NCBI GenBank assembly: GCA_003138855.1
Contig: PLHF01000127.1
Coordinates: forward strand, 1-41,176
Source of the DNA: Acidimicrobiaceae bacterium
Lineage (GTDB): Bacteria > Actinomycetota > Acidimicrobiia > Acidimicrobiales > RAAP-2
Direction: 5' to 3'
Length of the DNA stretch: 41,176 nucleotides
Shown: positions 6,884-16,134 of the stretch, one piece after another
Layout: each line of letters opens with the position of its first letter
How positions within the stretch are numbered: position 1 is the stretch's first letter
Made by a program: the position numbers and the translations under genes
The notes under the pieces: model-generated
What the model was told of the DNA's origin: nothing
The model's database searches: none
Seen by the model: the letters and a program-made list of their open reading frames with translations, nothing else

Positions 6884-7939
6884 TCATTCCGAGCCGTTGG
6901 ACCCAGGGGTGGGCCCCGTTGGCGCACTGTCGTTCCCCGGAGCACCGTTGTTGATCGTGGCCTCGAGTACGCCCACGCGGTCCATCACCCAATCGAAATC
7001 CGGTGGCTCAGCCCGGAACATCCCCGCGTTCGCCATCTCGGCATAGTCGGCCCGCAGCGCATCAACTCCGATCTGGTCGGGAACCAGACGGATCCTGCCG
7101 GTCGTGCAGTCTTCGTAGTGCGAAGTGCTCCTAGCGAAATGGACGTTCTTCACGGCCACAACGTCCGCGAGGAGGTCGCGGTCCTTGAGCGCAGCTTCCC
7201 CGACCTCGTGCTCGGACAGCCGGGCCAGGTCGTACCAGTGACGGGAGATCCGATCGGCTCCCCGGTCCCACTGCCCGCGGTTGCACTCATCATGGGCCAG
7301 GGTCGCCTTCTCCCAGAATGTCCGCGCAGCCGAGAGCACGTCGACGGTGGCAAGAGGAAGCTCGACCTCCTCGGCAGTGAGGAAGTCGGTCACGTACGGA
7401 GTGATTACGCGGGACTCGCTCGGAACCACACGGTTGCGGGCCCCGAACTCCATTCTGACCCGCTCGGCGAGGTAGCCGCCTTCCTTGTCAAAGCAGCTCG
7501 GGTAGTCGAGGACGACGGTCTCGTCGTCGAGCATGGTGACGAATTCGCTCGGGTCGTCGACGTACGGAACGAGGGCACAACTGACGAGCGGCACCACCAC
7601 CTCTTCGAGGTAGCCCGTCAGCTGGGCGCCGAGCTGTTCCCGGACCTTCTTTGCTGCACTCCTCGATGCGGGGAGCCCGGCGTTCGCGTCAGGATCGAGA
7701 GCGACCGTGAGGTCGATGTCTTCGGAGAACCGGTCGATGACCCCGTAGACCTTCGAGAGCGAGGTGCCGCCCTTGAAGGCCATTTGCGGACGGCCCTCCT
7801 GCCTGAAGAGCACGTCGAGGGTCCAGCAGAGCCATACGTCCTTCTCGAGAATCTTGGGCGGTAGACCGGTGCCAGCGGCAGCCACGGCGTACACAGCGCG
7901 GCGCTCGTCGGTCTCCTCGAGCAAGAACTGATCAGGCAT
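6884..7939 (-). CDS. abiEii: AbiEii-type nucleotidyltransferase toxin
   Basis: A 351-aa protein of the AbiEii/AbiGii family, the toxin of type IV-like AbiE systems that stop cell growth during phage infection. The nucleotidyltransferase core is clear: AFKGGTSLSKVYGVIDRFSEDID, with GGTSL at 57-61 and acidic EDID at 73-76, preceded by LEKDVWLCWTLDVLF. A further family motif, HWYDLARLSEHEV, occurs in the C-terminal third. Its ATG overlaps the antitoxin stop by 8 nt (ATGCCTGA at 7932-7939), so translation is coupled. Studied members transfer nucleotides to tRNA or bind GTP; which applies here is unknown. Length is normal for the family and all motifs are intact. Confidence 0.92.
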   Translation of the reverse strand: MPDQFLLEETDERRAVYAVAAAGTGLPPKILEKDVWLCWTLDVLFRQEGRPQMAFKGGTSLSKVYGVIDRFSEDIDLTVALDPDANAGLPASRSAAKKVREQLGAQLTGYLEEVVVPLVSCALVPYVDDPSEFVTMLDDETVVLDYPSCFDKEGGYLAERVRMEFGARNRVVPSESRVITPYVTDFLTAEEVELPLATVDVLSAARTFWEKATLAHDECNRGQWDRGADRISRHWYDLARLSEHEVGEAALKDRDLLADVVAVKNVHFARSTSHYEDCTTGRIRLVPDQIGVDALRADYAEMANAGMFRAEPPDFDWVMDRVGVLEATINNGAPGNDSAPTGPTPGSNGSE

Positions 7940-8582
7940 CCGCCAGCTCTCTGACCACCTGGCGCTCCGAAGATCCGGACTGAGGGTGCTCGTAACGGTA
8001 GAACTCGTCGCTCAGCCAGGCCGGCATCGCGTTGGTCTCCTCACGCAGCGTCTTGAACTCCGCGACCGGCAGCGCGCCCCGCACTTGAGCGATGACCGCG
8101 GGGGTCACCTGTTTGGGCCCGAGGTAACGCAGTGCGCGCAGCGCCTCGCCGGCCGGGGTGCCTGCCAGCACCAGCTCTTTGGGGGCTGCGTGCCGGAGCT
8201 GCACTTTGAGCTGACCTGACTGGACGGTCCGGCTGCGGCCAGAGGTGAGGAACACCGGGGACAACGGGGCCTGGGTGCTCAGGCCGAGCCGGCGGGCGGC
8301 TTCGGCGCCATGGGCGGCGATCGACTCGCCCCGGCTCTTGGCCAGAGCCTCGGCCAGGGCCTGGGGCTCGGGAGGGACCGGTCCGGCGAGGCGGCTGGTC
8401 TTGGGCCGGTAGTAGAGGCCACGAGCGGCGCGTGTGATCTCCCCAGCTCGCCCGAGCCGGCTGAGCGCCTGGTCCACGGCAGCCCTCGTGCCATGGCGAA
8501 GCAGCCGGGACGTCGGGATCAGCGCCCCGGGTCCGGCCTGCTCGAACTCCTTTCGGATCGCAGTGATGGTCGATGTACTCAT
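7932..8582 (-). CDS. abiEi: AbiEi-type antitoxin / transcriptional repressor
   Basis: A 216-aa protein with an N-terminal winged helix (about 1-70; ending LSRLGRAGEITRAARGLYYRP) and a C-terminal antitoxin domain, as in AbiEi and the related DUF6088 proteins. It precedes the toxin gene with an 8-nt overlap, the standard antitoxin-first order. The ATG at 8582 has no Shine-Dalgarno sequence. TAGTAT (plus-strand 8590-8595) ends 7 nt before it, so the mRNA is probably leaderless. A perfect inverted repeat flanks that promoter, which fits the known negative autoregulation of abiE by AbiEi. Together with abiEii this forms a complete toxin-antitoxin pair, likely for phage defence or for stabilising the mobile element. 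Confidence 0.9.
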   Translation of the reverse strand: MSTSTITAIRKEFEQAGPGALIPTSRLLRHGTRAAVDQALSRLGRAGEITRAARGLYYRPKTSRLAGPVPPEPQALAEALAKSRGESIAAHGAEAARRLGLSTQAPLSPVFLTSGRSRTVQSGQLKVQLRHAAPKELVLAGTPAGEALRALRYLGPKQVTPAVIAQVRGALPVAEFKTLREETNAMPAWLSDEFYRYEHPQSGSSERQVVRELADA

Positions 8583-8610
8583 GTCAGAAATACTACACGA
8601 TTATCTGACA
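8582..8610 (-). promoter_or_regulatory. abiE promoter and inverted-repeat operator
   Basis: Read on the minus strand, TGTCAGA and TCTGACA form a perfect 7-bp inverted repeat with a 15-nt spacer (plus-strand 8604-8610 and 8582-8588). The spacer holds a -10 hexamer TAGTAT ending 7 nt before the ATG. AbiEi proteins are known to bind inverted repeats in their promoters, so this is the expected operator. The absence of a ribosome-binding site points to a leaderless message. No convincing -35 box is visible. Confidence 0.7.
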
Positions 8611-8845
8611 GAGGCGAACACGCGATCCCGGCCGACCTCGCGTATTTGGTGCGCTTCAGTGACGGTTGACCGAATCGAGGTCGGTCGGCTGTGGCAAGGC
8701 ATGGAAGACCTCGTCCGTCGAGCCGAGCCAAGTTGGGCCGCACGCTGCCGTGATTCGCCGGCAAGCTCCTTGTCTTGGCTTGTGCTGTGGAGGGCGACAA
8801 ACGGGGAGGGCAAGTCAGGCTGGCGGAGCTCGTTGCCACTCACAC

Positions 8846-9094
8846 TCAGGACGCCACCGTCTCGGAGGCGACGATCTCGTAGGGAATCCCGATCTGGTCG
8901 AGCAGTCGGGCCGTGGCGATCCGGTGGTGCGCTCCCGAGCCACCTGCTCGGGGCAGTGTCGGGATGACGCCTGCCATGCAGTCGTCACGGATGGCATGGT
9001 CCGAACGCCCGAGCAGGGGTGCCACCTGCGATGGTGAGCACACCAGAGGCAGGTCGATTCCTCCGGTGGCGCGGACGAACAGGGCGGCGTTCAT
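8846..9094 (-). CDS. Excisionase-like helix-turn-helix protein
   Basis: An 82-aa protein whose core, SPSQVAPLLGRSDHAIRDD followed by GVIPTLP, has the MerR/excisionase-type winged-helix pattern: a helix-turn-helix, then a short strand and a positively charged wing. The ATG at 9094 overlaps the upstream stop (ATGA, plus-strand 9091-9094), which decides the start over longer in-frame possibilities and shows it is coupled to the preceding gene. In mobile elements such small proteins act as recombination directionality factors or small repressors. Neighbouring ssb genes and a distant integrase fit, but a direct role in excision is not shown. Confidence 0.65.
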   Translation of the reverse strand: MNAALFVRATGGIDLPLVCSPSQVAPLLGRSDHAIRDDCMAGVIPTLPRAGGSGAHHRIATARLLDQIGIPYEIVASETVAS

Positions 9095-9402
9095 GCGGCA
9101 CCCCTGTCGGTCGGGGTTGACGTTGCCGGTCCGATCGTCGTGCACGGATCCGACGGCCCGCTGGGCTTCCAAGGTCTCAAGTGCGGACCCGGACGCAGCG
9201 CTCCGATTCCGTCGTCCTCGCGAAGTGGGACCCGCAGCGTCCGCTGGGCGCGGGAGGAGAGAGGCAGGGGATGGTTGTCAGCGCCGAGGACGGCGATCGG
9301 GGGCTCGTGTGCCGGTGGGCTCTCGAATCCGACGATCGGCCCGGGGACATCCCTGACGGTCGGTCGGTCGGCATGGAACTGGTCGGTCGTGAAGGAGTTC
9401 AT
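9091..9402 (-). CDS. Small protein of unknown function under module A
   Basis: About 103 aa, rich in Pro, Arg and acidic residues, with no recognised domain, membrane segment or signal peptide. Two facts support it being real: its stop overlaps the start of the excisionase-like gene by four bases (ATGA), and its start sits at the same place relative to a four-box control region as the start of the sigma-like gene (ATG 24 nt from the first box in both). GTG 9411, in frame 9 nt upstream, is an alternative start and is matched by a GTG at the same place in the other gene. I cannot assign a function. Confidence 0.55.
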   Translation of the reverse strand: MNSFTTDQFHADRPTVRDVPGPIVGFESPPAHEPPIAVLGADNHPLPLSSRAQRTLRVPLREDDGIGALRPGPHLRPWKPSGPSDPCTTIGPATSTPTDRGAA

Positions 9403-9421
9403 GTCGGCCACGATGACGGTC

Positions 9422-9691
9422 GGGGCTCACAGATCCCCTCATCAAATGGCTCACAACCGGAGAAAGTTCGAGAAATTCCGTTCGGCGGCCAAAGTGCCAG
9501 GTCGGAGACCCGCCGACTCCGGATGATTACGAAGTCCCAGCTCAAGGGGCTCACAAATCTTGCTGTGAGGGGTTCGCAACGCGGGAGCTGATCTGGCTCT
9601 CCGGACCCACGCTGACGGGGCGCCACGACGTCGAAGTCGACGTCATGGCAGCTCAGGGGGCTCACAACTCAGTTTGTGAACCCCTCACAAA
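9422..9691. repeat. Control module A: four TCACA boxes
   Basis: Boxes of the form GGG(C/T)TCACA(A/G) lie with CTCACA at 9426, 9550, 9661 and 9684, giving spacings of 124, 111 and 23 nt. The last part forms a perfect inverted repeat TTTGTGA-acccc-TCACAAA (9673-9691). Module B upstream of 11877 has the same boxes at spacings 124, 111 and 22. The module lies upstream of the minus-strand gene starting at 9402 and about 370 nt before ssb on the other side. It could be an operator array or a replication iteron set. Confidence 0.85.
9627..9644. repeat. Perfect 8-bp inverted repeat
   Basis: GACGTCGA-ag-TCGACGTC, two perfect 8-bp arms with a 2-nt centre, inside control module A between its second and third boxes. 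It has the size and symmetry of a dimeric regulator site. I see no equivalent at the matching place in module B, so it may serve the ssb side only. Confidence 0.55.
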
Positions 9692-10060
9692 CGTCTCGGG
9701 GGTGTATCGGGGTCGAGGAGGCCTTCGCCGAACTCGCCGTGCCGCATTCGGCGGGGAACCACGCCGACGCCGTTCGGCGCTCGGCGTGAGGGACCTGGTG
9801 CGGCAATCCGGTTGGTGGACCCGTTCGACCCTTCGGTTGGTTTCACACCGTTGCCAGCCGTCAAACGTCGCTCCGGAATACGGCTCGACCCCGGAGACCG
9901 CCGGCACGCCGGCGCCGGGGTCGGCCTTTATGTCCTCGCTCGACCTTCGGCCGCCCCTTGACTGCTGGCTCCGGCGTGGGCAATCGGCTTCCAGCGATTG
10001 ATGACGGACCAGGCGGGGCGAGAAGCGCCCCACCCGTCACCAATCACAAGGAGAACAGCC
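9692..10060 (+). promoter_or_regulatory. Leader region of the first ssb gene, with hairpins
   Basis: This 369-nt stretch has no supported gene. It holds a strong hairpin with arms CGACCCCGG (9886-9894) and CCGGGGTCG (9915-9923), which enclose a second stem GCCGGC-ac-GCCGGC. A smaller hairpin, GGGGCG-agaag-CGCCCC (10015-10031), ends 17 nt before the ribosome-binding site AAGGAG (10049-10054). The structure may attenuate or regulate ssb. No clear -10 box was found. Confidence 0.4.
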
Positions 10061-10465
10061 ATGACCATCACATCCACCACCATCGTGGGCAACCTGACCA
10101 GGGATCCGGAAATCCGCTACACCCGGGAGGGCCAGGCCACAACGTCCCTGTCGGTGGCCGTCAACCGCCGGTGGCAGGACAAGGAGACCAAGGAGTGGGA
10201 GGAGTCGGTCTCGTTCCTCGACGTCGTCTGCTGGAGGGACCTGGCCGAGAACGTGGCCCTAAGCCTGACCAAGGGCGCACGGGTCGTGGTCACCGGTCGC
10301 CTGGAGCAGCGGAGCTGGGAGAGCGACGAGGGGGAGAAGCGGTCCAAGGTCGAGATCGTGGCCGACGAGATCGGTGCCAGCCTCCGGTTCGCCACCGTGG
10401 ACATCCACAAGGTCCAGCGCCCGGCGACCGCCGACGAGCCCGCCGACGAGGCGGCGTCCGCCTGA
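10061..10465 (+). CDS. ssb: Single-stranded DNA-binding protein (first copy)
   Basis: A 134-aa OB-fold protein that coats single-stranded DNA during replication, repair or conjugative transfer. The family pattern is clear: IVGNLTRDPEIRYTREGQA at the N-terminus, then FLDVVCWRDLAENVALSLTKGARVVVTGRLEQRSWE, and a final beta strand near residue 110. ATG 10061 has AAGGAG at 10049-10054; an upstream in-frame start lacks one. Chromosomal SSBs usually have a long Gly-rich tail ending in an acidic DDDIPF-type tip for recruiting partners. This one ends ADEPADEAASA, acidic but without that tip, as is common for plasmid or phage SSBs. It is followed by a strong hairpin and then by a second ssb. Confidence 0.93.
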   Translation: MTITSTTIVGNLTRDPEIRYTREGQATTSLSVAVNRRWQDKETKEWEESVSFLDVVCWRDLAENVALSLTKGARVVVTGRLEQRSWESDEGEKRSKVEIVADEIGASLRFATVDIHKVQRPATADEPADEAASA

Positions 10466-10470
10466 CCGGA

Positions 10471-10501
10471 CCGGAGGGGTCGGGACTCCCGACCCCTCCG
10501 G
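10471..10501 (+). terminator. Hairpin terminator after the first ssb
   Basis: Two perfect 15-bp arms, CCGGAGGGGTCGGGA (10471-10485) and its complement (10487-10501), begin 5 nt after the ssb stop codon, which ends at 10465. There is no T-run, as is common for terminators in high-GC actinobacteria. Confidence 0.7.
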
Positions 10502-10590
10502 AACCCCCGTTCCTCCGCAATTCCCCAGACGTTCCCTTCCGGGCGCCGTTGCGCGACCCAGTTCTTATGGTGAGCGATCCATCAGCATCC

Positions 10591-10623
10591 CGACCGGGCC
10601 GCTCTCTCCGAGCGGCCCGGTCG
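10591..10623 (+). terminator. Second hairpin between the ssb genes
   Basis: Arms CGACCGGGCCGCTC (10591-10604) and GAGCGGCCCGGTCG (10610-10623) with a 5-nt loop TCTCC, a very stable 14-bp stem followed by TCGTTCG. It lies 101 nt before the second ssb. It may terminate read-through or fold in that gene's leader. Confidence 0.55.
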
Positions 10624-10724
10624 TCGTTCGTTGGTGCCCTGCTCGCCCCACCCCGGTGGTCCGGCGATTGCCGTCTCCCGGGACCCTGCGATTTCCACCA
10701 GCAACCCACAAGAAAGGCACAACC

Positions 10725-11075
10725 ATGAACACTGTGACCATCACCGGCCGCTTCACTGCCGATCCGGAACTGAGGTTCACCTCCGGGACCGGCAAGGCGG
10801 TCGCCACCGTCAGGGTGGCCCTCAACGACCAGGGTCGGGACAAGGCGGTCTTCGTCGACCTCGAGTCCTGGGAGAAGACGGCGGACTTCATCTGCGAGTA
10901 CGGCACGAAGGGCCGCCTCTTCGAGGCAACCGCACGTCTCGCCCTCGACCAGTGGACCGACGCCGAAGGAGGCCAGCACTCCAAGCACTACCTCGTGACC
11001 GGCCCCTACCAGTTCCGGTTCCTGGACAAGGCCACCGGCACCGATGAGCCCGAGGCCCCGGTCGGAGATGGTTGA
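10725..11075 (+). CDS. Single-stranded DNA-binding protein (second copy, divergent)
   Basis: A 116-aa OB-fold protein related to but clearly different from the first ssb. It opens MNTVTITGRFTADPELRFTSGTGKAVATVRVAL, the SSB strand-1/2 pattern, and continues FVDLESWEKTADFI and KGRLFEATARLALDQW. ATG 10725 follows AGAAAGG (10711-10717). It ends TDEPEAPVGDG, so it too lacks the DDDIPF-type tip and the long linker. Two short SSBs side by side suggest specialised roles in a mobile element, for instance in replication versus transfer. The alternative is a PriB-like or phage accessory OB protein. It is terminated by a strong hairpin shared with the convergent sigma-like gene. Confidence 0.85.
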   Translation: MNTVTITGRFTADPELRFTSGTGKAVATVRVALNDQGRDKAVFVDLESWEKTADFICEYGTKGRLFEATARLALDQWTDAEGGQHSKHYLVTGPYQFRFLDKATGTDEPEAPVGDG

Positions 11076-11094
11076 CCGGACGAGTCCAGACGGC

Positions 11095-11125
11095 AAGAGG
11101 GGGACCCCATCGGGGTCCCCCTCTT
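11095..11125. terminator. Bidirectional hairpin terminator
   Basis: AAGAGGGGGACCCC (11095-11108), loop ATC, then GGGGTCCCCCTCTT (11112-11125): a perfect 14-bp stem with A-rich and T-containing edges on the two sides. It lies between the stop of the second ssb (11075) and the stop of the convergent sigma-like gene (11155), so it can serve both. Confidence 0.85.
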
Positions 11126-11154
11126 CTACGTTCCGGCCATCGGTGGCCGGCGGG

Positions 11155-11877
11155 TCAGGCCACCAGCTGGGTGATGGCGGACCGCCGTTGGCGCCGGAGC
11201 TGGGAGACGGGCTCCCCGGCAAGCTCGGACAACTCGGCCATGGTCAGGCCGAGCACACTCGTGGCGTAGAGCACGGCGGCATCGGCCGCGGCCAGTCCGT
11301 CACCGGTCGCCTCGGCGAGGGCGACGGCCAACAGCTCCTCGCCGGACCGATCGCTCCCTGCTCGGAACACGTCCATGCCTTCAGGGGCGGTGCCACGCCG
11401 GGAGCGGTGCCGCCGCTCAGTCGCCTGGAGGGATCGGAGTCGGGTGCGTGTCCCAGACAGCAGGTCGCCTGCGGCGTAAGGGCGCACCGTCCCGGTCCAC
11501 ACGGTGATCTGCTCCCAGAGGCAGGAGATCGCGTCGGCAAGGAAGCCGTCGACGTCCTGCCACGGACCTTCGGAGATGTCGAACCGTTTCACCAGCGCCA
11601 GGACGCCGGGAAGGAGTGCCTGGACGATGGCCCGGGGGACGAGCTTGTCGGTCCCGGCCCTCGCCAGCATGGTGGCGATCACCGTGGCCGCCTCGTTACG
11701 GGTGAGGCGACCTGCCGCAGGCGACAGGGCGGCGACCAACCCGGCGAGGTCGTCGGCATCGAGCCGGGCGATCGCCGGCTCACTGTCGGCCAGGCGCAGA
11801 TAGGCGGTGCGCGACGGGGGAGCAGTACCGAGGACCTGCCATTCACGTCGGAGCCGTCGGGTCGTGGGGGTGTCCAT
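11155..11877 (-). CDS. Sigma-factor-like DNA-binding protein
   Basis: About 240 aa. The C-terminal 50 residues look like a sigma region 4 helix-turn-helix: LAAADAAVLYATSVLGLTMAELSELAGEP, then VSQLRRQRRSAITQLV. The middle (DVDGFLADAISCLWEQITVWTG) resembles region 2-type helices. It is therefore probably a divergent sigma-70-like regulator of the mobile element, though an ordinary HTH regulator is possible. ATG 11877 is used; GTG 11886 is an alternative. The ATG lies 24 nt from the first box of control module B, exactly as for the gene at 9402. It is transcribed away from that module and converges on the ssb pair. Confidence 0.6.
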   Translation of the reverse strand: MDTPTTRRLRREWQVLGTAPPSRTAYLRLADSEPAIARLDADDLAGLVAALSPAAGRLTRNEAATVIATMLARAGTDKLVPRAIVQALLPGVLALVKRFDISEGPWQDVDGFLADAISCLWEQITVWTGTVRPYAAGDLLSGTRTRLRSLQATERRHRSRRGTAPEGMDVFRAGSDRSGEELLAVALAEATGDGLAAADAAVLYATSVLGLTMAELSELAGEPVSQLRRQRRSAITQLVA

Positions 11878-11900
11878 GGCCGACACGATGAACGTGAGGG

Positions 11901-12163
11901 TTCACAGATCCCCTCACAGAACCCCTCATCACCGAAGATTTCCGAATTGAGCGCCGTCGGCGACGCGATCGTCCGCCGCGGGGGGCGAGCGAGCCAAGAA
12001 CGGGCATACGCCCAGCCCAGAGGGTTCACAAATTCTGTGGCGGGCCCGATCACAGACTCGAGGCAGGGTTCACAAGTTCGACGCCTCAACCTGCCGGCGG
12101 ATCTGCCGGAAACGGCATCGGCGCAGGTGGGAGGGTTCACAAAATCGCCAGGGGGGGTTCACA
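11901..12163. repeat. Control module B: four TCACA boxes
   Basis: Boxes GGGTTCACA(A/G) lie with TTCACA at 11901, 12025, 12136 and 12158, spacings 124, 111 and 22 nt, plus an extra copy at 12069. Next to the first box, TCACAGATCCCC and TCACAGAACCCC form a 12-bp tandem repeat. The 15-mer TCACAGATCCCCTCA (11902-11916) is identical to 9427-9441 in module A. The module lies directly upstream of the sigma-like gene (minus strand). Equal spacing to module A shows the two are copies of one regulatory unit. Confidence 0.85.
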
Positions 12164-12598
12164 AACGGCGAATCGCCTCAATCGCGCTCCGTGCCCCCTC
12201 CCCTTCGGTGCGAACAATCGCCCGGCACACCGACCGCTGCCGGACGGCGGCCGGCAATGCGATGGGCGCCGCGGAGCGCTGCGCCTTCGTGCTCACCCAG
12301 GTCGGAGAGGACATACGGCCTGGCCACGGCATCCGTTGTCGCCATGCTTCGACGCAGCTGAGCGGCTCCACCGAAGTGTTCGTCGCGTCCCGACGCCGGG
12401 GAATCGTCGGAGACTTCAGAGGAACGGAGAGCCTGGAGGGCTCGCTCTCCAATTGCCCGTCGCTCGGACTGCACTCGTTCGCGGGACTGCGGAAGAGCGG
12501 GAGCAAGATGGACGATCCGCATAGCGGATCGTGGGGGCGCCGCCGTTGGCCTTGCCCAGGAGTTGTCCCCGAGGTCCCCTCGGCGTCGCTGCGCTGGG
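12164..12598. other. 435-nt stretch without a supported gene
   Basis: Between control module B and the group II intron remnant. Open frames exist on both strands, including one minus-strand frame of about 110 codons, but none has a recognisable motif or a ribosome-binding site. It contains two hairpins: ACGATCCGC-ata-GCGGATCGT (12512-12532) and CCGAGG-tcc-CCTCGG (12569-12583). The latter ends 15 nt before the proposed intron 5' end, and group IIC introns are known to insert next to such stem-loops. Confidence 0.45.
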
Positions 12599-13159
12599 GT
12601 GCGTCCAGAAAGCTCAGGCGCATCAAGAGAGGAGGAATTCTCTGGAGATGAACTGAGCGACAGCTCACGGGAGCCTGCCGGTGAAAGTCCGGTCCGGGGA
12701 GACGCCAAGGTCCCCGGTAGTGAAGCCCCCGACGTCGGTCGAAATGCCGGCGTCGAAGCGGGGTGGATCAAGTGGCCGGTCCGCAACATCAAGTGAAGCC
12801 TGCAACGTCGTCAAGCGACCCGGGGAACCGGGACAAAGAGGGAGCCGAACTTCTCTCAGCGAGGTGAAGGCCAGGGAAGGTGTCTGAGAACTTGGAGCGG
12901 ATACCAATGAACCCTCCGGCGTAGGGGGCGTGGAACGGTCAGACGGTTGCCGTGGGAACTGGAGAGGCCCTCCTCGGCCCGCGTCCTGTGGGGATGCGGA
13001 GTGCGTCTGCCTATAACCGGCGACCCCGGGAAATGGCAGGCAGCCGAGAGGGAGTCGGAGGGGGTCGTAGTAGTGACGACGGGCGGGACAACATAACCCG
13101 CTCCGAGCGAAGGACCCCTGCTTCACCGATGCACGAGAAGGAAGGGACGGAGTAGGTCA
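12599..13159 (+). mobile_element. Group II intron 5' part, reverse transcriptase missing
   Basis: The stretch reads like the ribozyme part of a bacterial group II intron. It begins GTGCGTCC (12599), includes GGTGAAAGTCCGGT (12679-12692), a purine-rich structured core, and near 13060-13080 the block GTCGTAGTAGTGACGAC, then GAGCGAAGGACCCC just before where the intron-encoded protein would start. These elements are typical of domains I-IV. The expected reverse transcriptase is absent: the reading frame from GTG 13160 ends after 66 codons without RT motifs, and the luxR gene occupies the DNA from 13369. No domain V/VI is seen. The exact 5' boundary is tentative. Confidence 0.6.
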
Positions 13160-13368
13160 GTGTCAGACCGACTAGATCAACCAGCAGATGCCGACGATAC
13201 AGGCGACCACCATGCCCGGACACGGGCCAGGGACGTTGCCAAAGCCGAAGGCGTCAGCAGTCTCCAAGCCCTCCAACGCTTGCACCCCACAGGCCGGCGC
13301 CGAGTCTCTGGACCCTTCAGCCCCCCGACTCCCGCGACACCTGAAGCACGCCTTGACTGATCTGTCCT

Positions 13369-16134
13369 TCAGCGGGTGTCTGGCTCTTCGTGGGCTTGGT
13401 CGACGAGGTCCCGAAGTTGGTGGCGGCCTGCGATGCCGAGCTTCGGGTACGAGCGGTAGAGGTGGGAGGCGACGGTGCGCGGGGAGAGGAAGAGGCGGTC
13501 GCCGATCTGGCCGTTGGTCAGCCCGCGGCTGGCCAGGATGACGATCTCACGTTGTTGGCCGGTGAGTCCGGCGAGCGTGTCAGATGTGCTTGGCGTTCTT
13601 GGCACGCTTACGCCGCAGGCGCGTAGTTCAGCTTCGGTGCGCCGGGTCCAGGGCGTGGCACCGAGGCGGCGGAACGTCTCGAGCGCAGCCGCTAGGGGGG
13701 GTTTGGCGTCGTTGATGCGCCGCTGGCGCCGGAGCCATTCTCCGTAGTCCAGCTGGAGCTGGGCGCGCTCGAACGGCCAGCTATCTCCACTGGCGTCGGA
13801 TAGGCCGTCGAGGAAGTGGGCCCCAGCGTCGGCGTCGGTCAGCAGCCCGCGCGCCCGAGCGGCGAGCTGTTCCAGCCGGGGACCCCGGGCAGGCCCCGTC
13901 ATGGCCAATGCGCCGTCCACTAGCTCCCAGGTTTCTTGGCGGCGTTCGGCGCGCACCGCGGCTGCGGCAAGGTCGGCGATAGCGAGGTAGGAGACGTGGT
14001 GGTGCAGCGGGGTGCCGTCGGCGTCGAAGAGCCTGCTGAGCTGCGCGTATGCGGTCGGGTGCTTGCCTTGGGCTAGCTCGGCGAGGCCTGCGGCGTGCAG
14101 CGCTCTGGCGGTGACCGAGCGGTACTCCGCTCCGTCAGCGGTGGCGACGGCGCTGGCGAGCAGAGACTCGACTCGGTCGAGGTCCCCGCGCATGGCGAGC
14201 ACGGTGGCAGTTGTGAGGTCGGCCGTGGCGGCGACGGTCTCCATCTTGTAGGCGGCAGCGGCGTCGGCGGCCTCGTGGGCGGCTGCAAGTGCTTCGTCCC
14301 AGCGTCCGCTGTCGATGCACGCCCACTGCAACGCTGACAGCGCGGCACCGCTCCCCCCGCGGACGCCAGGGGCGCGGAGCTGGCTGAGGGCTTCCCGCAG
14401 CAACTGGACCGCCAGCTCGGTCTCGTCGAGCAGCCAGGCCGTCGCGCCAACCTTGGCCAGCTCGACGACAGGTCCCTGCGCTACTGCGTGCAGGAGTGGC
14501 ACCGTTTCAGTCCTGTTGCTGAAAGGTTTAGTGCACGCTTGTATCCACGCTCGCTGCTCGTCGTCGTATCCGCCGGGCCAGTCCGCCGGAGGCGGTGCCG
14601 GCACCTGGAGGAAGTCGAGCGTGCGCAGCACCCGTTCCTGGTCGGCGGGGATGCCTGACTGGTAGGCCACCGTGGCAGCCAGGCCCACGGCGTCCCAGGC
14701 GGTGACTGGCAGACGACCTGAGACTTCGACGGCGACGGCGATGACCGTCTGGAGCGCCTCGGCGTGCTGGTTCGACCAGACGAGCGCCCAGCCGATCTGC
14801 AGCCGCGCCGCGATTCGCTGGTCCGGGTCGGAGGTCACCGCGAGCACCCGGGTGGTGAGCTCCTGCACCCAGTCGGCTTGTCCAGCGGTGAGAGCGAGGG
14901 TGGCGGCGGCCAGCAGCCGCCGGGCTTGGTCCTGCTCGCGCGGGCTGAGGTCGGCCGCGCGTTCGAGGGCGCGTGCTGCGGCTGCTACGCCGCCGCGCCG
15001 CTGAGCCTGGGCTGCGCTGTGCTCCAGCAGAGAGGCCACCGGCTCGTCAGGCTCTAGCGTCGCCGCCGCCAGATGCCAGGCGTGGCGGTCAGGCTGGTCA
15101 CGGAGCGCGTCGGCGATCAGTCGGTGCGCTGCGGCGCGCTGAGCGAAGGGCGCGGCGTGGTAAGCGGCGGTCCGGCCGAGAGGGTGGACGAAATGCGGCC
15201 CCGACCGGTCCACCCGGATCAGTCCTGCCGCCTCGGCGGGAGCGAGGGTGTCGGAGGACAGCCCGGCCATCGTGACCGCCGGCAGATCGGCGCTGTCGGC
15301 GACCGCGGCGAGCAGCAGCGCCGACTGCGTCGAGCCGGGCAGAGCGGCGAACTGGGCAGCGAGGACCGCGGTGAGCCGCTCGACCGGTAGGAGCAGCTCA
15401 CCGGTCCAGCGTCGGCCGACGCCCGGCTCGGCCGCGATCGCCTTGGAAAGCTCGATCAGCGCCATCGGGTTGCCCGCCGCTTGGGCAAGCACCTGCTCCC
15501 TCGCCCGGCCGCGCGGCGGGCGGGGCTGCACGTCGAGCAGCCGACCGGCGTCCTGCACGCCCAGTGGCTGTAGCGGCAGTTCCGGAAAGTCCCGATCGAA
15601 ACCTGTGGGCGGTATGTTGCCGCGCACGCCGAGGAGCAGGACGAGCCGTTCCGATGTCAGGCGGTGGGCGGCGAAGGCGAGCGCGTCCAGCGAATCGCGG
15701 TCCAGCCACTGGGCGTCGTCGGCGACTACCAGAAGCGGGCTCTGGTCCGATAGGCCCGAAAGTAGCGTGAGCACGGCGATCCCGGTCAGGAGGGCATCGC
15801 TCGGCACTGGATCCTGCGAGAGCGCGAGTGCCCCCAGAAGCGCCTTCTCCTGCCGTTCCGGCAAGGCCGCCACACGGTCCAGTACCGGCTGGAGGAGCTG
15901 GTGGAGCCCGGAAAACGCCAGGTCCTTCTCTGATTCCCGGCCAGCGGTCGACAGCGCCCGCGTGCCCGCCGTTGCGGCCCAGCGTGCCGCGTCGGCCAGC
16001 AGCGCGGTCTTGCCCATCCCGGCATCCCCCAACAACACCAGCACCCGGCCTTCCGCCGGTGGTGGGACAACAAGGCCCCGCAGCCTGGACAGCTCGCCGT
16101 CCCGGCCGATCAGACCGGTGTCTGTGCTGTGCAC
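13369..16134 (-). CDS. LAL-type LuxR-family regulator (AAA ATPase + TPR + HTH)
   Basis: A 921-aa STAND-type regulator. The N-terminal ATPase has Walker A GDAGMGKT (36-43) and Walker B LLVVADD (134-140), followed by QWLD. The centre is a long Ala-rich helical region of TPR-like repeats (roughly 330-840). The C-terminus is a LuxR HTH: LTGQQREIVILASRGLTNGQIGDRLFLSPRTVASHLYRSYPKLGI. The start is GTG 16134. The length of about 900 aa is normal for the LAL group (MalT relatives), which switch on nearby catabolic or biosynthetic genes when a ligand and ATP bind. It is divergent from the SDR-led operon with a 185-nt shared promoter region, so it is the probable activator of that operon. Its 3' end abuts the decayed intron. 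Confidence 0.93.
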   Translation of the reverse strand: MHSTDTGLIGRDGELSRLRGLVVPPPAEGRVLVLLGDAGMGKTALLADAARWAATAGTRALSTAGRESEKDLAFSGLHQLLQPVLDRVAALPERQEKALLGALALSQDPVPSDALLTGIAVLTLLSGLSDQSPLLVVADDAQWLDRDSLDALAFAAHRLTSERLVLLLGVRGNIPPTGFDRDFPELPLQPLGVQDAGRLLDVQPRPPRGRAREQVLAQAAGNPMALIELSKAIAAEPGVGRRWTGELLLPVERLTAVLAAQFAALPGSTQSALLLAAVADSADLPAVTMAGLSSDTLAPAEAAGLIRVDRSGPHFVHPLGRTAAYHAAPFAQRAAAHRLIADALRDQPDRHAWHLAAATLEPDEPVASLLEHSAAQAQRRGGVAAAARALERAADLSPREQDQARRLLAAATLALTAGQADWVQELTTRVLAVTSDPDQRIAARLQIGWALVWSNQHAEALQTVIAVAVEVSGRLPVTAWDAVGLAATVAYQSGIPADQERVLRTLDFLQVPAPPPADWPGGYDDEQRAWIQACTKPFSNRTETVPLLHAVAQGPVVELAKVGATAWLLDETELAVQLLREALSQLRAPGVRGGSGAALSALQWACIDSGRWDEALAAAHEAADAAAAYKMETVAATADLTTATVLAMRGDLDRVESLLASAVATADGAEYRSVTARALHAAGLAELAQGKHPTAYAQLSRLFDADGTPLHHHVSYLAIADLAAAAVRAERRQETWELVDGALAMTGPARGPRLEQLAARARGLLTDADAGAHFLDGLSDASGDSWPFERAQLQLDYGEWLRRQRRINDAKPPLAAALETFRRLGATPWTRRTEAELRACGVSVPRTPSTSDTLAGLTGQQREIVILASRGLTNGQIGDRLFLSPRTVASHLYRSYPKLGIAGRHQLRDLVDQAHEEPDTR

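Follow-up and report, generated by a model that had tools for sequence, protein, structure and literature searches.

Box arrays with element-specific core letters in a putative mobilizable element of uncultured soil actinobacteria

The DNA considered here is a stretch of 41,176 nucleotides (nt) from an Acidimicrobiaceae bacterium (contig PLHF01000127.1 of assembly GCA_003138855.1), referred to below as the window. It carries part of what is probably an integrative mobilizable element, of a kind whose host lineage is uncultured soil actinobacteria. In this element, two modules, A and B, stand ahead of minus-strand genes, and each is an array of a short box, YTCA-NN-R, with the boxes at fixed distances from the start codon. 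The core letters NN differ between elements and change at nearly all boxes together. The arrays of the window are as follows.

9426–9456, plus strand: three direct boxes of module A with a period of 12 nt (CTCACAG at 9426, CTCATCA at 9438, CTCACAA at 9450)
9550–9569, plus strand: box 4 of module A (9550) with its inverted partner (9563–9569)
9661–9690, plus strand: box 6 of module A (9661), an inverted box (9674–9680) and box 7 (9684)
11901–11931, plus strand: three direct boxes of module B (11901, 11913, 11925)
12025–12164, plus strand: further direct boxes of module B at 12025, 12049 (ATCACAG), 12069, 12136 and 12158, with no clean inverted partners

An earlier sequence-only reading had described four boxes per module, starting at 9426/9550/9661/9684 in module A and at 11901/12025/12136/12158 in module B, with spacings of 124/111/23 and 124/111/22. 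It had also noted, in both modules, an ATG 24 nt from the first box with a GTG 9 nt ahead of it, and a 15-mer identical between the two, TCACAGATCCCCTCA. These details hold, and there is more to the pattern than was described, with up to nine boxes per array. The boxes overlooked are those at +36 and +48 in both modules, the inverted ones at +161 and +272 in module A, and those at +172 and +192 in module B. The full layout is three direct boxes 12 nt apart, followed by two box clusters about 111 nt apart.

Exact matches to GGGYTCACAR number nine in the window, every one inside modules A and B, compared to a mean of 0.4 and a maximum of 2 in 100 first-order Markov copies. Allowing one mismatch raises the count to 20, compared to 10.6 in shuffles, 1 of 100 of which reaches 20; this looser count alone is weak evidence. 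Placed without gaps, module A (301 nt) fits best at 11875, with 137 identities, compared to a mean of 80 (standard deviation 7.7) and a next best of 113 across the whole window. Outside the boxes the two modules are 36% identical over 144 sites compared to 27% expected (P ~0.012). A coding role for the modules was considered and rejected, since boxes 3 and 4 are separated by about 100 nt and later boxes shift by 1 nt, so that no single frame is kept.

The geometry is conserved in relatives, cited here by genome (G) and locus (L) numbers. Module copies were taken from G000, G004, G011, G013, G018, G036, G062 and G075, as well as from G426, which belongs to another family. The comparison set consists of 21 modules (18 type A, 3 type B) in a gap-free alignment anchored at the start codon; L043 (near-identical to the window), L085, L093, L097, L102, L104, L146 and L147 were read outside this count. 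The boxes lie at +24, +36, +48, about +148, +161 (inverted), +171, +259, +272 (inverted) and +283. NTCA is present in 21/21 modules at b1, b3 and b4, in 19 at b2 and b4i, in 18 at b5, in 17 at b6, in 15 at b7 and in 14 at b6i, scored at the exact position for b1–b3 and within 2 nt for all others; the off-site rates are 0.02 (exact) and 0.10 (±2 nt). The sequence between the boxes diverges.

Arrays lie upstream of the close class of the sigma-like gene that they precede, sig (copies ~52–97% identical whose start was read, with L094 and L095 outside this set). One close-class copy, L093, has lost the first three boxes and kept the later cluster. A near-identical locus is L043 in G004, whose sig is 97% identical. 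The upstream regions of 15 distant homologues of sig (no more than 42% identical) were scanned; none has an array, and three have a single stray box. An order-wide search with the box pattern matched 14 of 397 genomes, of which only G000 and G426 are array-like by their letters. The single match in IMG/VR, L217, has no relatives of the element genes and reads by eye as coding DNA. No relatives of sig were found in plasmid and phage collections at E 0.01, and the literature searched did not name an integrative mobilizable element and Acidimicrobi together.

The core doublet is CA in the window and TC or TG in relatives. Within modules it agrees in 76% of 586 box pairs (21 modules); column-wise shuffles (n = 2000) give a mean of 37% and a maximum of 44%, with 0/2000 reaching 76%. 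A thinned set of 13 modules gives 76% compared to 33% shuffled. Since such shuffling leaves relatedness in place, the paralogous arrays A and B were used as the main control. Both arrays are complete in three elements: the window, L199 and L109, the last with a run of N between them. Inside one element, A and B share the doublet at 4/6, 6/6 and 5/7 boxes (15/19); between elements, A and A or B and B share it at 0/8, 1/7, 0/8, 0/6, 1/7 and 0/6 (2/42). The identity outside the boxes is alike, at 36, 55 and 51% within elements and 39–57% between them. By the counts of 15/19 and 2/42, the core letters go with the element and not with the type of module.

A looser count took in 13 elements, with a pattern that scores palindromic boxes twice. 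The majority doublet is the same in A and B for 9 of them (including the near-identical window and L043, and L109 with its run of N), tied in 2 (L042, L102) and different in 2 (L046, with an N gap, and L041, mixed). Outside that count are L104–L107 and L146–L148; L105 and L106 have TG in both arrays. Arrays of more than one doublet occur within each of the genomes G000, G036 and G062. In the window and in L199, array B keeps the doublet without inverted partners, which counts against pure self-pairing. As a side observation made by eye, a GGACAAAACACCWGSTCAGRGGG-like sequence stands ahead of boxes 4 and 6 in TG arrays (for example, L046 2880–3364) and also once upstream, and is a possible second conserved site.

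The genes and other features around the arrays in the window are these.

8846–9145, minus strand: small excisionase/MerR-like open reading frame (ORF), labelled by eye
9091–9402, minus strand: 103-amino-acid ORF in the sigA position, by synteny with L199
9837–9981, plus strand: core of a structured motif, with a terminal hairpin to about 10042
10061–10465, plus strand: ssb1 (Pfam SSB, 1.1e-33)
10725–11075, plus strand: ssb2 (Pfam SSB, 1.2e-15)
11155–11877, minus strand: sigB, a sigma-like gene of 240 amino acids
12419–12598, plus strand: region resembling an origin of transfer (oriT), with the inverted repeat CCGAGG-tcc-CCTCGG and then GTCGCTGCGCTGGG
12599–13190, plus strand: group II intron with approximate ends, its start set from the end of homology and by eye from GTGCG

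The complete order is seen in L199 (G426): sigA, array A, structured motif, ssb1, ssb2, sigB, array B, oriT-like region, mobC and relaxase. Pfam finds a relaxase (MobA/VirD2-like), NikA-like and MobC in L043 and L199, and the putative oriT region is conserved directly ahead of mobC in relatives. In the window, homology to relatives stops at 12598, where G004 runs on into mobC and relaxase; the window passes into the intron at this point (Rfam group-II-D1D4-4 at 12675–12791), and neither of these two genes was found in it. With the 103-amino-acid ORF in the place of sigA and the intron where the mobilization genes begin, the window is therefore a damaged copy, and the MobC and relaxase of its relatives point to an integrative mobilizable element. 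The window's arrays have no integrase next to them. After sig in L106 comes a large serine recombinase (Pfam), a protein whose cluster has members in 5 loci. The excisionase/MerR-like ORF is present in some elements and has no Pfam, NCBIfam or PHROG match. Group II introns were also noted by eye in L091 (~2225) and L085 (~1397). The introns lie directly behind the oriT-like site or within the final cluster of boxes, as if hairpin-seeking introns used such sites. To the left of the element, at 6884–8582, the window has a pair made of an AbiEii toxin and a DUF6088/AbiEi-like antitoxin, also seen in G004 and G075.

The 103-amino-acid ORF and SigB both lack Pfam and NCBIfam matches. The former is probably a remnant or replacement of sigA; at the same position L109 has a degraded sig (tblastn E 5e-13). 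The earlier statement that the two genes served are unrelated needs amending: both arrays precede sigma-like paralogues in L199, and the ORF of the window occupies the place of sigA, although it has no detectable similarity to sig beyond the start. At E≤1e-25, 32 of the 172 family genomes have homologues of the sigma-like protein. The sigma label is suggested by matches below cut-off, to sigma-70 region 4 in the L106 protein (E 0.0062) and to TIGR02937 in L199 SigB (E 0.0082, residues 103–238). The sig profile had no match at E≤1 among PDB sequences, and its structure model is of low confidence (mean predicted local distance difference test score 52), best in the C-terminal helices. Three G036 copies (L046, L091, L092) have the sig frame broken at about residue 132–139, and the G036 copy L039 is intact.

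The structured motif between array A and ssb1 has no Rfam match at 9837–10042 and could be an RNA or single-stranded DNA signal. It lies at 10206–10412 in L199. Of 33 loci searched, 15 score above 140 bits, and the model was built from 12 of these. In the alignment of these 12, eight base pairs have both sides changed with pairing kept. Its folding exceeds that of shuffles on the minus strand (z −5.1 as DNA, −4.1 as RNA) and on the plus strand (z −2.9 for both). Weaker matches (27–46 bits) occur in L099, L101, L103, L111, L112 (4600–4719) and L114; these should be treated with care, because true copies read on the opposite strand reach as much as 33 bits. In L101 a 41-nt piece matches by plain DNA at 88%, and in L112 and L101 ArdC-like genes and ssb are near the weak copies. 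L112 3661–14911 is a second mobile element with ArdC-like, ssb, ParB-like and TrwC relaxase genes, and by eye similar genes occur in L099, L101 and L103. An order-wide motif search found 3 of 397 genomes at E≤1e-4, the window's own among them.

With a little better than even confidence, the modules can be read as operator arrays that one element-specific factor recognizes in trans, controlling the sigma-like genes and perhaps the ssb and mob genes. A sequence-specific DNA-binding factor would recognize the YTCA-NN-R boxes. The three boxes 24–54 nt from the start codon would sit at the expected promoter or leader of the sigma-like gene, and the two distant clusters, at a near-constant distance across a diverged spacer, would let the bound factor assemble one higher-order complex. 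Acting on arrays A and B together, the factor may couple expression of the sigma-like genes, raising or lowering it, with that of the divergent ssb and mob genes. If the two core letters fix specificity, elements in one cell would not need to cross-regulate. The parts of this system are ordinary and their arrangement, arrays apparently read in trans with element-specific letters, is unusual. The coordinated mobile-element switch put forward by the sequence-only reading remains the best account of the modules, and a single trans-acting factor for both is supported by the three complete elements, in which letters follow the element.

Several observations weigh against this picture. Complete A and B arrays are known in only three elements, and the position test of the boxes covered only ±2 nt. 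Mixed arrays occur in L041, L098, L102 and L107 (first boxes TC, next cluster TG), and L046 has TG in array A and TC in array B, with N between them. The candidates for the reader also fail. Across a TG and a TC element the identity is 94% for MobC, 93% for SSB1 and 88% for the relaxase, and MobC has the same beta-strand in L106 (TG) and L109 (TC). The excisionase-like protein is 83–85% identical between CA and TC elements, and the C-terminal helix of sig is near-identical in TC (L040) and TG (L108). In an alignment of five TG and three TC copies of sig, 2 of 240 columns tell the two groups apart, and by eye both fail once the frame-broken L046, L091 and L092 are added. No shared protein examined tracks the doublet, so the proposal of an element-encoded regulator, with the excisionase-like and sigma-like proteins as binders, finds no backing here. 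The reader may be an outside factor, from a helper or the host, or a nucleic acid.

An outside reader is what a helper-sensing role would supply. Here the arrays would bind the activator of a conjugative helper, as the AcaCD boxes do in SGI1, with the doublet tuned per helper; this is possible, if rather unlikely. If each doublet were tuned to another helper, no gene of the element would be expected to track it, and no resident gene examined does. The element carries mobC and relaxase, and a VirB4-like AAA_10 model is over its cut-off in 0/9 genomes (7 have weaker matches), although it passes in only 3/14 control genomes and may miss type IV secretion systems. A precedent is the binding of AcaCD at the SGI1 xis promoter (PMC4605294). 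On the other side, among the matches listed in 172 family genomes there is no second kind of element with several boxes, scattered singles being found elsewhere (one family-wide pattern was loose, matching 95/172), and box clusters are absent from the six loci that carry the TrwC-type element or its kin. The genomes, being metagenome-assembled, may lack helpers and plasmids. A bolder proposal, which we regard as improbable, is a self/non-self code of mobilizable elements, in which the two-letter core is rewritten at nearly all boxes of both arrays and co-resident elements differ. Its reader would be outside the shared element proteins, and the code may be read by array or motif RNA or single-stranded DNA, or by a partner from outside that the code selects.

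Somewhat more doubtful still are signals of a single-stranded leading region, with the hairpins of array A and the motif folding on the transferred strand to drive early ssb expression in the manner of Frpo/ssi. Both ssb genes point to the oriT-like site, folding of the motif is stronger on the minus strand than on the plus strand, a TrwC-type element has weaker copies close to ssb and ardC, and Frpo offers a precedent (PMC11541004). However, hairpins are absent from array B in the window and in L199, the concerted direct boxes are left unexplained, and mismatches have no clear strand bias in either the box arms (by eye) or the motif (14 GU on the plus strand, 17 AC/CA). The order of inverted repeat and GTCGCTGCGC on the plus strand, which we take to resemble an IncQ oriT, would presumably make plus the transferred strand. 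Concerted letters might also arise without function, by repeat-to-repeat copying through template switching at hairpins or gene conversion. Inverted and direct repeats are close by and neighbouring boxes are often identical, yet A and B are more than 2 kb apart and 36–55% identical outside the boxes with the same doublet, so conversion tracts would need to be the size of a box; this is very unlikely. The duplicated iteron or origin that had been offered as a second option, with boxes binding a replication initiator, has slightly less still to recommend it. Direct repeats at fixed spacing with SSB genes nearby would suit it, but no initiator was found among eight window proteins (6884–16134) or the relatives' proteins run against Pfam (part of their ORFs). 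A period of 12 nt is not typical of iterons, and the nearest replication-like site is the oriT-like stretch about 250 nt past module B.

Under the reading as operator arrays, fixed geometry with switched letters is a natural series in which regulatory binding specificity can be tested by letter swaps. If the letters serve to avoid cross-talk, they would be the plasmid-side equivalent of immunity groups in phages. The motif beside ssb, which has weaker copies close to ssb and ardC in a TrwC-type element, would offer a way to study how these bacteria turn on establishment genes.

Among known systems, the Frpo/ssi single-strand promoters (PMC11541004) are alike in having ssb genes and hairpins near oriT; unlike them, the element has no located −35/−10 hairpin promoter, and array B lacks hairpins in the window and in L199. 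The AcaCD boxes of SGI1/MGI are likewise regulatory sites inside a mobilizable island, and they bind a known helper activator, whereas here no box-bearing helper is among the matches listed (PMC4605294). The stoperators of Cluster A mycobacteriophages are many dispersed sites whose sequence shifts in step between elements, and here, too, the sites are concerted per element. Stoperator motifs correlate with repressor distances, whereas no resident gene examined here follows the sites (sig, MobC, relaxase, SSB1 and the excisionase-like protein), which stand, unlike stoperators, in arrays of fixed geometry (PMC6550527). EGeRS1, a stretch of 400–600 bp in conjugative Bacillus plasmids of the pLS20 family, is also a multi-copy conserved regulatory stretch with inverted repeats; its copies precede establishment operons, and its mechanism is given as unknown (PMC8708921). 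The arrays described here precede sigma-like genes and have diverged spacers. EGeRS1 copies in one plasmid mostly cluster as wholes, whereas in these elements the letters of the boxes alone follow the element (PMC8708921).

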